Shown here one piece after another: positions 20,447 through 23,380 of a stretch of 23,803 nt of DNA. The stretch covers positions 1-23,803 of the IMG/VR virus record IMGVR_UViG_3300014050_000139; one strand, written 5' to 3'. Both the position numbers and the translations under genes were made by a program. Under the pieces are notes generated by a model. The model was not told the DNA's origin and ran no database searches. It saw only the letters and a program-made list of their open reading frames with translations. Origin of the DNA: a virus. The number at the start of each line of letters is the position of its first letter. Positions within the stretch are counted from its first letter, which is position 1.

Positions 20447-21171
20447 GCACATGGTTGTGTTTGGTTGGTGATACAAAGGTCGAAATAATTTTGAAGCAGT
20501 AATAACTTGGCTTCATTGATAGCTCTGAGGTGCAGGTTGTCCGATTCGAGGAACCGCTTCAGCTCGATGCGTTTTAGGCGGTCACCTTCATGGCGTAGGC
20601 GGTGGGATGTGTCGGCCTTTAGGCGTTCGATGGCATTGTCGTAGGCTCGCTTGCGCTCTTCGGGTGGGTAGTCGATGCTTCCGATGCGGGTCAGGTAGTT
20701 GTATGCCGCATTGCCATAGTCGGTTAGCTGCTTGCTGGAGGCATACTCGGTGAACTTCTCCAAGGTGGTTGCCTTGAGGATTGCATCCGCTTGGGATTGC
20801 CCTACGGGAGGGAGTAGTGGTGTTGTTTGTGTTTGTGCGAGTTTTAAGAGCCGTAACCGCTCAGGATGGGTCTTGTATGCGTTCAGCATCTTTCCGACGG
20901 CCTGAGGGCTTAGGATGGCCCCGTACATGGCTCCGTCGATGCCCGTAAGCTTCCCGGCACACATCCAGTCAACAGCTTGCTTGAAGTCAACCATGCTTAG
21001 GTCGGGGAACTGAGTGCGGGTGAACTCGATGAGGATGGCGATGCCTTCGTCGTTAGGCATCTGGGACGGTGGCAAGCCGATGGCGGTTGCGAGGTACTTC
21101 ATAGCCCGGTTGATGGCGTGGGCATTGGCTTCCCTTAGCTTGGTGGTGGCGGTGGTGGGTGTTGTGTTCAT
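20443..21171 (-). CDS. Probable replication accessory protein following the initiator
   Basis: 242 residues, mostly helical. Residues 35-100 (LPPSQMPNDEGIAILIEFTR, FPDLSMVDFKQAVDWMCAG, and ILSPQAVGKMLNAYKT) resemble a family commonly found beside primosome genes in Bacteroidota phages. The C-terminal half is a long charged helix set (EERKRAYDNAIERLKADTSH...). No Walker A motif, so it is not a DnaC-type ATPase. It starts as ATGA with the DUF1376 gene. A helicase-loading role is a guess from gene order. Confidence 0.62.
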   Translation of the reverse strand: MNTTPTTATTKLREANAHAINRAMKYLATAIGLPPSQMPNDEGIAILIEFTRTQFPDLSMVDFKQAVDWMCAGKLTGIDGAMYGAILSPQAVGKMLNAYKTHPERLRLLKLAQTQTTPLLPPVGQSQADAILKATTLEKFTEYASSKQLTDYGNAAYNYLTRIGSIDYPPEERKRAYDNAIERLKADTSHRLRHEGDRLKRIELKRFLESDNLHLRAINEAKLLLLQNYFDLCITNQTQPCA

Positions 21172-21932
21172 TCGTTATACGAAGATAGTGCTTGTTGATA
21201 GAAGGCTTCGGGGTTCTGAGATAGCTGGGCTTCCCATCGCTTGAAGGTGTCCTGCACGGTTTCGGCTTTGGAGGTGGTGTTGGCCTTGATGGCTTGAGCT
21301 TGCTTCCGCGCCCAGTTAGAAAAGTGCATCTGGTAATCCTTTATGGTTTTGCCTTCGAGGTTTCCCGTTGAGGATTGAATCTCATAGAACACCTTGGCGA
21401 GGGTTGCTGCGCTGCCCGGTGGTAGGCCGTTGTGCATCTCTACGGTCTGGAGCAGGTTTGTGTTATCGGTCAGGGTGTTGGGCTTGGGTTGCACGGCCAA
21501 TGTTTTTTCCTTTCCCCCAGACCCCCTATCCTTTTTTTTAACTACATTTTCATTTTCATTTTCATTTTCCATACGCTTAAGCATATGCTTATTCATATGC
21601 TTATTGGTTTTTACCTTGTTAGAATCTTTGTTTTTTTCCTTAGAACCGTTGTTCCTGCGGCTTTCCGTGAACTTTGCACGCTTCTCTTTTTCTTGATTCA
21701 ATCTTTCATTCCAGTAAAAACCATCTTCAAAAATGAATTTTTCAACGAGGTTAGGCCAAGCTAACTCGAAGCTACTTCCAAGCATATGCTTCGCATGTGC
21801 TAAGGTGAATTTTCCTCGATTAAATTGGAGCATGAGCAAATCCATATAACAGCCTTTTTCAAGATGTGTCATGTGCATTGTGCCGCCCTGCCAATCGCCG
21901 GGGTAAAATAAAAATGCGGGGTCTTTTGCCAT
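21168..21932 (-). CDS. DUF1376/YdaU-type replication initiator
   Basis: 254 residues. Residues 1-80 show the DUF1376 winged-helix start: KDPAFLFYPGDWQGGTMHMT, LEKGCYMDLLMLQF and WNERLNQEKEKRAKF, as in YdaU and phage replisome organisers. Residues 90-150 form a Lys/Asn/Glu-rich linker with NENENENE coded by a CATTTT hexamer repeat. The C-terminal part (about 165-254: LAKVFYEIQSSTGNLEGKTI, YQMHFSNWARKQAQ) resembles a second helical domain. It likely binds the phage origin and recruits replication proteins. Candidate iterons lie inside this gene. Confidence 0.83.
   Translation of the reverse strand: MAKDPAFLFYPGDWQGGTMHMTHLEKGCYMDLLMLQFNRGKFTLAHAKHMLGSSFELAWPNLVEKFIFEDGFYWNERLNQEKEKRAKFTESRRNNGSKEKNKDSNKVKTNKHMNKHMLKRMENENENENVVKKKDRGSGGKEKTLAVQPKPNTLTDNTNLLQTVEMHNGLPPGSAATLAKVFYEIQSSTGNLEGKTIKDYQMHFSNWARKQAQAIKANTTSKAETVQDTFKRWEAQLSQNPEAFYQQALSSYNE
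21545..21568. repeat. CATTTT hexamer repeat (4 copies) in the initiator gene
   Basis: Four exact CATTTT units in tandem; on the minus strand they code Asn-Glu pairs in the flexible linker. The length is a multiple of three, so changes in copy number would alter the linker without breaking the frame. It makes the region AT-rich, which would also suit an unwinding element. Confidence 0.85.
21579..21602. repeat. Palindromic AAGCATATGCTT plus half copy (candidate iteron)
   Basis: AAGCATATGCTT at 21579-21590 is a perfect 12-bp palindrome, followed by CATATGCTT at 21594-21602. The same palindrome recurs at 21780-21791. Both are inside the replication initiator gene beside an AT-rich tract, as with the lambda origin inside gene O. 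Confidence 0.5.
21780..21801. repeat. Second AAGCATATGCTT palindrome with degenerate neighbour
   Basis: AAGCATATGCTT at 21780-21791, then GCATGTGCT at 21793-21801, one base off GCATATGCT. It repeats the arrangement at 21579-21602. Both encode Lys-His-Met-Leu, so shared codons are an alternative explanation. Confidence 0.48.
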
Positions 21933-21936
21933 GATG

Positions 21937-22161
21937 CTATTGAATAACCGTTTTATCTTCTTCCTGTTGTTCGGCTAATTCTGCCGCGTCCAAGATGAGC
22001 CGAGCCAAGGCACGGGCATCTGTGGAGGTTAGGATTGTAAGAGGTCGAAAAGCTCTACCGAATACACTGTCTGCAATGAGGATTTGTTTGTAATTATTGA
22101 CAATGACCTGTATTTTATCGCCACGCTCATCCAAAATTGATACTGTTGTTATTATTGCCAT
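21937..22161 (-). CDS. Small hypothetical protein at the start of the replication operon
   Basis: 74 residues, ATG at 22161, ending 4 nt before the initiator gene. Strand-rich first half (ITTVSILDERGDKIQVIVNN), helical second half (STDARALARLILDAAELAEQ). No family recognised. It is the first gene after the structured non-coding region; a hairpin with a T9 run ends 8 nt before its ATG, so its translation or transcription could depend on that structure. Confidence 0.65.
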   Translation of the reverse strand: MAIITTVSILDERGDKIQVIVNNYKQILIADSVFGRAFRPLTILTSTDARALARLILDAAELAEQQEEDKTVIQ

Positions 22162-22169
22162 AATGTTGT

Positions 22170-22227
22170 AAAAAAAAAGCCCATGCGGCCTTTCGGGGTA
22201 GCAGAACCCTACTCGGCCACATAGGCT
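22170..22227 (-). terminator. Intrinsic terminator/attenuator just upstream of the 22161 start
   Basis: Outer arms 22215-22227 and 22178-22190 form a 13-bp stem on the minus strand, with two G-U wobbles. On the plus strand the same two positions are C-A mismatches, which indicates that the minus-strand RNA is the functional form. An inner small stem lies at 22196-22214. Nine T follow the stem (22178-22170). Confidence 0.75.
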
Positions 22228-22271
22228 GTTTGTTGTTTTTTTTGTTTTTCCGAAGCTGCTACTCTTCGTTT

Positions 22272-22312
22272 AAAAAACCGGGAGGCTACGTGCGGCTAAA
22301 CACACCTCCCGG
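22272..22312 (-). terminator. Intrinsic terminator after the winged-helix gene
   Basis: Minus-strand CCGGGAGG (22312-22305) pairs with CCTCCCGG (22285-22278) and is followed by TTTTTT (22277-22272). The loop is long (19 nt). It lies 79 nt after the stop of the gene at 22391-22624 and would end the early transcript, unless transcription starts at the -7 element between them. Confidence 0.68.
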
Positions 22313-22332
22313 CTAATAATTAAATTCTATGG

Positions 22333-22340
22333 CAAAGTTA
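22333..22340 (-). promoter_or_regulatory. Bacteroidota -7 element (TAACTTTG)
   Basis: Minus-strand TAACTTTG is a full match to TAnnTTTG in the non-coding region between the early genes and the replication genes. Transcription would start near 22328 and run through the hairpins. No TTTG is seen at 19-21 nt upstream, so a phage activator may be needed if it is used. Confidence 0.45.
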
Positions 22341-22390
22341 ATCAAAACTGCGCATCAGTCTTACGGGACTTTTGCACAAGTTTTAATAAC

Positions 22391-22624
22391 TTACACCACG
22401 GGCTTCTTGCCCATGTAATAAACACCGTACCTCGTTCCGGTCTTGGACTTCACATCGAGGCGTTTAATCTTCATACCTCGGTTGTAGATGAGGTTGTAGA
22501 TGACGGCAGACAGGCGTGTACACTTGTACTTCTTGAAGGCTTCCATCGAGGTGATGGGCTGGTTGCTCTTCAGGTGTTGCGCGATTAGGTCGTGCTGGTT
22601 CATTGGTTTTTTTGTTGTGTTCAT
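22391..22624 (-). CDS. Small winged-helix DNA-binding protein (HTH_39-like)
   Basis: 77 residues. Residues 11-50 (DLIAQHLKSNQPITSMEAFK, KYKCTRLSAVIYNLIYNRGM) match the HTH_39 pattern 'i..~L.~g..iT~~eA~~~~g~~rL~~~I~~Lr~~G', and RYGVYYM closes the wing. Such proteins are common small regulators or accessory factors in phages. A pair of 22-bp dyad repeats lies 25 nt upstream of its start, which suggests autoregulation. The start ATG at 22624 shares its leader sequence with the gene starting at 22879. Confidence 0.8.
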   Translation of the reverse strand: MNTTKKPMNQHDLIAQHLKSNQPITSMEAFKKYKCTRLSAVIYNLIYNRGMKIKRLDVKSKTGTRYGVYYMGKKPVV

Positions 22625-22648: not shown

Positions 22649-22701
22649 TTTTACTCAGTCTATTGAGTGATTTTACTCAGTCTATTGAGTGATTTTACTC
22701 A
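22649..22701. repeat. 22-bp tandem dyad repeats upstream of the winged-helix gene (candidate operator)
   Basis: Two exact 22-bp units (22649-22670, 22671-22692) plus a 9-bp partial third. Each contains ACTCA-N6-TGAGT (22653-22668, 22675-22690) with a further ACTCA half-site at 22697-22701, so the dyads are two helical turns apart on one DNA face. The second unit also supplies the TAG stop of the 65-residue gene (22682-22684). Confidence 0.72.
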
Positions 22702-22879
22702 ATGGTTTCAACTCTTCGGTTCCTTCGAGGAATCGCATCATGTTCGTGATGCGGTCGGTCGTTCCCAGCGGCCAGTCGGCCAAGGCGATGAACCGCTTCT
22801 GCATCTCGTTTAACAGGTCTCTGTTGCTTTCGCTGTGCGCGGTAAAGAAGTCAATGTACTCGCGTGGTAGTGTGTTCAT
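22682..22879 (-). CDS. Small hypothetical early protein
   Basis: 65 residues, ATG at 22879. Helical and soluble (EYIDFFTAHSESNRDLLNEM, FIALADWPLGTTDRITNMM). No known family. It ends inside the 22-bp dyad repeat. Early-region position suggests a host take-over or regulatory role, but nothing in the sequence shows it. Confidence 0.62.
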   Translation of the reverse strand: MNTLPREYIDFFTAHSESNRDLLNEMQKRFIALADWPLGTTDRITNMMRFLEGTEELKPLSKITQ

Positions 22880-22900: not shown

Positions 22901-23380
22901 TTAATGTTCGTACCTCATTGAGTTGATGTAAAACATATCGCCTGCCTGCACCTCCAAGCCCACGAGCTTCACGGCATACATCACACATTCAATAGTAGCC
23001 TTAGCCGTCTCCCTCATGTTGCTCACTCCCATCAGGTACTGGGTAAGCATCGACTTGGTGCGGATACATTGTGTGTACACCGTCGTGCGGTGGTGCGTTT
23101 GCAGGTAGTGGCCGTGCTGCAGCTTCTTGTTCAATCCTCGCAAGCCGTAGACGTCCGCAAGAATGTAAAAGAACGCATTGCGGGCATATACAACCTCACG
23201 CTTATGGGTGTGCCTGTACAGGTCTTTGTCGCTGACTTTGAACTTCTTTGCGCAATAGTTGTGTACCTTCTCGATAGCCAAGTCTTGGTCTTTTATATGC
23301 CTAAAGTAATACGCTGGCAGTTGCGGGTCAAAGTAGTTGAGGCTGTGGGATAAGAACTTATCGTTGGTTTCCTTGTTCAT
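22901..23380 (-). CDS. DnaA domain IV-like DNA-binding protein
   Basis: 159 residues, ATG at 23380, overlapping the upstream gene by 23 nt. Residues 36-112 follow the DnaA C-terminal domain: VHNYCAKKFKVSDKDL, a basic helix KREVVYARNAFFYILADVYG, and HHRTTVYTQCIRTK (96-109), which corresponds to the DnaA-box-reading 'DHTTVLHA..KI' signature. The ATPase domain of DnaA is absent. It could bind host or phage DnaA boxes, either to start phage replication or to interfere with host initiation. Residues 113-159 are a phage-specific tail. Confidence 0.75.
   Translation of the reverse strand: MNKETNDKFLSHSLNYFDPQLPAYYFRHIKDQDLAIEKVHNYCAKKFKVSDKDLYRHTHKREVVYARNAFFYILADVYGLRGLNKKLQHGHYLQTHHRTTVYTQCIRTKSMLTQYLMGVSNMRETAKATIECVMYAVKLVGLEVQAGDMFYINSMRYEH

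Follow-up and report, generated by a model that had tools for sequence, protein, structure and literature searches.

A kissing pair of hairpins ahead of replication genes in Bacteroidota phages, a candidate attenuator leader

What does the structured stretch that separates a winged-helix gene from a replication operon do in a phage genome? The window in which this question arose, meaning the whole stretch of DNA analysed (23,803 nucleotides), corresponds to positions 1 to 23,803 of IMG/VR record IMGVR_UViG_3300014050_000139, a phage contig whose identified genes all lie on the minus strand. A preliminary description, made from the letters alone, had listed there a -7 element, a terminator hairpin, a small hairpin with an 8-nt loop and a second terminator-like hairpin, and had proposed either an attenuator or a free small RNA; all four components were recovered in place.

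Upstream of the leader lies p77 (22391..22624, minus strand), an HTH_39 winged-helix gene (Pfam PF14090, E 7e-13) used as a synteny marker and 56-57% identical to its counterparts in two related loci, L003 and L031. Immediately behind the leader is p74 (21937..22161, minus strand; ATG at 22161), a small gene with positional homologues in L003 and L031, for which a scan found no relatives, followed by p254 (21168..21932, minus strand), a DUF1376/DUF7833 primosome-type replication gene (PF07120; PHROG 9327, primosomal protein). The promoter element TAACTTTG (22333..22340, minus strand), a -7 element of Bacteroidota type, has counterparts at the corresponding position behind p77 in L003 and L031; at 22340-22333 it is the sole TAnnTTTG on the minus strand between 21000 and 23803, and transcription in the window would be expected to start at ~22328. 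It is followed, in the window only, by a GC-rich terminator-like hairpin (T1; CCGGGAGG..CCTCCCGG, then T6; 22278..22312, minus strand).

From 22268 to 22162, the minus strand carries two hairpins, a small one (H1) and a long, terminator-like one (H2), joined by an unpaired linker rich in A; a U-run comes after H2, and then the p74/DUF1376 replication operon begins. H1 (22251..22268, minus strand) is CGAAG-AGTAGCAG-CTTCG, with a 5-bp stem and the 8-nt loop AGUAGCAG; the linker (22228..22250, minus strand) spans 23 nt, and 12-38 nt (median 20) in relatives; H2 (22178..22227, minus strand), AGCCTATGTGGCC..GGCCGCATGGGCT, consists of a 13-bp base, an internal loop and an apical stem. The U-run behind H2 and the 8-nt spacer ACAACATT (22162..22177, minus strand) lead to the ATG of p74. 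The kissing bases of H1, GUAGCAG (GTAGCAG in the DNA, 22262-22256, minus strand), are exactly complementary to CUGCUAC (CTGCTAC, 22204-22198, minus strand), close to the H2 apex, which bears out the loop match of the preliminary description.

As regards the strand, the minus-strand fold reaches -81.9 kcal/mol (z = -6.6; 0/200 shuffles equal it) vs. -62.0 kcal/mol for the plus strand (z = -2.2 vs. shuffles), and two G-U pairs of H2 in the minus-strand RNA are C-A on the other strand, as had been noticed. The predicted folds thus support the functional minus-strand transcript that had been suspected. T1, which had been counted as a part of the device, is missing in L003 and L031 and was ruled out as a component of the conserved element. 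Moreover, H1 follows the -7 element immediately in most relatives; in the window, with T1 between the two, the start of the leader is therefore less certain than in the relatives.

Terminase relatives were taken from viral contigs, and L003 and L031 were picked by synteny, not by structure. Both have p77, then a small gene resembling p74, then a gene in the place of DUF1376, in the order of the window; their p77-p74 gaps hold the -7 element at the same place, directly followed by H1, an A-rich linker and H2, with no T1. A kissing hairpin pair was present in 3/3 of these gaps (window, L003, and L031), against 1%, 0.7%, and 0% of dinucleotide shuffles, and the kissing loops differ (AGGCAG/CUGCCU in L003, CGGCAC/GUGCCG in L031). 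In the L003/L031 alignment, 23/23 tested pairs, six of them kissing, form in both sequences, with none one-sided and none broken; seven pairs are changed on both sides, two of these in the kissing helix, and sliding the partner by 1-3 columns lowers pairing to 30-42%. Furthermore, among the phages filifjonk, morran, and mumin, 98.9% of cells are paired and six pairs are changed on both sides, three of them in the kissing helix; the counts of the two comparisons rest on two and three sequences, respectively, and shuffles reach the observed values in 2-3/500. Compensatory changes, whose lack in homologous phages was to have spoken against the preliminary description, were therefore found in both comparisons and argue that the loop-loop contact is real.

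Other features were observed around these loci. In the window, a further predicted hairpin (22337-22390) lies directly behind p77 and overlaps the -7 element; on the minus strand, p77 is closely preceded by an operator-like tandem palindromic repeat of ACTCA-GTCTAT-TGAGT units (22650-22705); and a 159-aa protein (22901-23380) matches the DnaA C-terminal DNA-binding domain (PF08299, E 2e-5, below the family cut-off). The protein at the DUF1376 position contains an ENENENEN-type low-complexity stretch (~21535-21570 in the window, a TTTTCA repeat on the plus strand), which recurs in the otherwise divergent homologues of L002, L003, and L031. On translation, the large-terminase match L003:3081-4469 gives one stop codon.

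Altogether, ~24 instances were identified in Bacteroidota phage contigs, five of them in one phage (G004). The search descriptor was a short-loop hairpin followed by a hairpin enclosing the complement of that loop; over 0.73 Mb it returned 26 matches vs. 10 in shuffles, and good matches share a -7 element just before H1, a U-rich tail after H2, and an ATG. With the promoter required, 14 matches score at least 50, vs. 2.6 in shuffles. Some instances were found without bias, by synteny or promoter motif, and others by the descriptor; the chance share of the latter is very roughly 20-40% before context is considered. Among candidates chosen by promoter, hairpin, terminator, and ATG, with no kissing criterion, 8/28 kiss over at least 6 bp, against 0.9 by loop permutation (maximum of 6 in 2000 permutations). 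A loose descriptor, with neither promoter nor tail, gave too many chance matches, and those lacking the context were dropped, e.g., L081 and L063/66/67/68, which fall inside genes. Scanning 14 further loci from bacterial assemblies yielded one convincing copy (L187), and 18 further contig pieces gave the known L175 copy plus chance-level matches, nothing else. In 0.8 Mb of one Pedobacter chromosome, three matches were found vs. 2.0 in shuffles, which is chance level, whereas the same scan of the phage loci gave 19 vs. 4.0.

Across the 24 retained instances, each loop pairs with its own partner over 7.1 bp, vs. 3.8 bp with foreign partners. The complement is centred in H2, at the apex, in 17/24 (2.0 expected), and this favours a kissing loop, which predicts exactly that position, over a chance match, which does not. 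A -7 element (6/6) lies within 40 nt before H1 in 13/24, against ~3% by chance, the instances being partly selected for it. No common sequence was seen among the elements, and for the linker as a matched spacer, no correlation of its length with that of H2 was found. In the H2 of L003, L115, L027, L129, and L101, a symmetric internal loop recurs (GGAU/UGAA, AGAU/UGAC or UGAC/CGAU), which in the modelled fold suggests tandem G-A pairs or a protein site; in a subtype (L002:3883-3988, L146:2282-2378), an extra small hairpin before the H2-loop kissing bases creates a three-way junction.

In G004, 5/8 copies of a 25-bp promoter motif lead into a kissing pair (four by descriptor, one by eye), vs. 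an average of 0.017 kissing pairs when the stretches are shuffled, and each of the five pairs has its own loop letters. The motif itself, TACTACGWWTTTNWTATNGTTAATA, occurs in this contig (IMGVR_UViG_3300048849_000134, the contig of L057) in eight copies on one strand (5908, 8952, 14180, 16947, 20166, 22548, 32547, and 51469), a set resembling a phage regulon under an activator or sigma-type signal of its own.

Cultured phages also carry the element: in Flavobacterium phage 11b (L102) it precedes gp62, and in Cellulophaga phage phi10:1 (L101) it precedes gp24; similarity searches from these led to phi19:1 and to the Flavobacterium morran/lillamy/mumin and elemo groups. The kissing pairs are GUGAGAAG/CUUCUCAC in morran, GUGAGACG/CGUCUCAC in filifjonk, GUGGAACG/CGUUCCAC in mumin, and UGAGAGC/GCUCUCA in elemoA_7-9A, as well as, read by eye, GUGAGAUG/CAUCUCAC in elemoA_2-5C, GUGGAGG/CCUCCAC in elemoF, and GUGGUGG/CCACCAC in Olleya phage Harreka_1. 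Homologous DNA is listed in 68 elemo-type and 46 lillamy/mumin-type records, RefSeq duplicates included, of which the named representatives were inspected. Tiny annotated ORFs that overlap or abut the leader in L252:367-510 (morran91_gp042), L263:106-201 (snusmum61_gp042), and L259:12-131 (elemo25C_phanotate19) are probably miscalled genes.

Behind the element there are mostly primase, helicase or DUF1376-type genes, with DUF5906, DnaB, Toprim primase-helicase, PriCT_1/BT4734-like, Prim-Pol/DUF3987, Lin1244_N, and DUF6291 among them. DUF1376 itself follows in the window and in morran9-1, a DUF1376-family homologue in L002, a replication protein and a primase-helicase in elemoA, and a DnaD-like helicase loader in phi18:3 (element read by eye); the exceptions, read from sequence, are endonucleases, an Xre-like regulator, and unknown small genes.

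The comparisons demonstrate, at the level of sequence and predicted structure, the two hairpins, the kissing pair, their strand, and their context of promoter, start codon, and replication genes. Since the match is kept while its letters change, the leader is very probably a working, uncatalogued switch. H2 looks like an intrinsic terminator because a T-run stands directly at its base (in the 8 nt that follow H2, T reaches 72%, vs. ~30% upstream of other genes, a statistic partly favoured by the search descriptor), and as a terminator downstream of the promoter and before the start codon it gives the layout of an attenuator; the attenuator-like terminator ahead of replication genes that had been proposed is thus supported by the predicted structures. 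The timing switch proposed along with it gained no support. In this context, our preferred reading, held with a confidence slightly above even, is that the element would be a 5'-leader attenuator of the phage replication operon, with an intramolecular kissing loop setting the terminator hairpin.

According to this reading, transcription would start just upstream of H1, and this 5'-terminal hairpin would fold first; while the upper half of H2 is emerging from the polymerase, the H1 loop would catch the apical loop of H2 in an intramolecular helix of 6-10 bp. Internal loops often break up the upper half of H2, and the kissing helix could therefore plausibly decide whether H2 completes in time and how efficiently it halts the polymerase at the U-run, a few bases ahead of the start codon. 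Termination would leave a leader RNA of ~110 nt, which would be exactly the free small RNA of the preliminary description, and read-through would yield the replication mRNA; if a factor, another RNA or polymerase speed occupied or broke the H1 loop, the ratio of the two products would change. We infer that termination occurs at H2, that kissing promotes it and does not impede it, and that the leader is regulated; no alternative antiterminator pairing was apparent. Against an attenuator count the weak U-tails of L114, L121, and G004:8996, the position of T1 between promoter element and H1 in the window, and L027, which lies immediately behind terS and lacks a visible promoter.

Such weak tails, which would be weak terminators, fit a leader acting on translation or mRNA stability, in which a compact kissing 5' end would protect the mRNA, or would hide or expose a U/A-rich ribosome-landing stretch between H2 and AUG, the U-run being the ribosome site and no terminator. 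The placement of H1 near the expected 5' end and of the H2 end only 7-39 nt from the ATG (24 instances) would suit this explanation too; we nevertheless consider it unlikely, given that T-runs at the H2 base far exceed the background ahead of other genes of these phages, and a ribosome site by itself needs none.

An improbable alternative is an antitermination RNA of the put type, in which the folded pair would bind the polymerase and let it pass H2 and later terminators of the long replication operon. In the lambdoid phage HK022, putL and putR are short (~70 nt) cis-acting RNAs of two stem-loops just behind an early promoter that act on transcription (PMC9378689), and the element likewise places two hairpins at the extreme 5' end of early-type phage transcripts. 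However, put sites have related sequences and, as far as that account goes, no kissing pair (PMC9378689), whereas the loops of the element pair and no conserved sequence offers itself as a candidate polymerase contact. In addition, the second hairpin of the element is itself terminator-like and stands before a start codon.

Among other known leaders, the purine riboswitch shows intramolecular two-hairpin kissing in a cis-regulatory leader, but has a ligand core and conserved bases, neither of which was seen here. Type III toxin-antitoxin (ToxIN-like) leaders place a short RNA and a terminator between promoter and ORF; the leader described here showed no tandem RNA repeats, and behind it lie mostly replication genes, with no toxin family found. 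ColE1 RNAI/RNAII and similar systems form loop-loop helices of 6-8 bp from hairpins whose loops measure 6-10 nt, intermolecular there and intramolecular in the element. In pT181/pIP501-type control, antisense RNA attenuates transcription in the rep leader; the likeness is replication-gene leader attenuation through loop-loop contact, but there the partner is transcribed from the opposite strand as antisense RNA, and here it lies in the same RNA. The pT181 system uses a kissing hairpin (PMC3753616). Control of this type was rejected, as an antisense -7 element (the type scanned) lies within 140 nt in 1/24, vs. ~10% at random.

The same count bears on a self-recognising RNA acting in trans, in which leaders would kiss those from other genome copies, so that termination rises with copies as in a plasmid-type copy-number brake. 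Loops that are element-specific, changing, and mostly orthogonal among the five G004 copies, together with the position ahead of replication genes, would agree with it; yet the complement lies in the same molecule, so that cis pairing should win, and two cross-matches of 6 and 8 bp occur in G004, which makes this explanation very improbable. Finally, a DNA-level site (replication origin or primosome-assembly hairpins) with incidental RNA is hardly credible, for although it adjoins primase and helicase genes and has an A/T-rich linker, the sense RNA folds better than the antisense in 21/24 (mean -4.0 kcal/mol, with some bias from allowing G-U and from the search descriptor), promoter and T-tail are strand-specific, and G004 holds five copies in one genome.

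Rfam covariance models were run at gathering and at loose thresholds; none of the families attains its gathering score at an element, and weak overlaps are at chance level (e.g., rli43, 14 bits vs. a cut-off of 100). No tRNA or tmRNA was found in the window, nor any match of the window region in a nucleotide search against phage records. The open-access literature searched yielded no account of a comparable kissing-loop leader in phages, and in a paper on Baltic Flavobacterium phages the words terminator, hairpin, and promoter are all absent.

In brief, the element would represent an uncatalogued class of phage regulatory RNA, one missed by standard homology search because loops and stems drift and the match alone is kept. 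A doubtful extension is that the sequence-free two-hairpin architecture is a general replication-operon attenuator whose loops diversify for self-recognition, possibly as a genome-copy sensor in trans; if true, Bacteroidota phages would have plasmid-like copy control without an antisense gene. Since the element stands ahead of replication genes in phages that are in culture (phage 11b and the morran/lillamy/mumin and elemo groups of Flavobacterium, phi10:1 and phi19:1 of Cellulophaga), control of these genes is directly testable, and the element is a source of natural kissing-loop parts with varied specificities.
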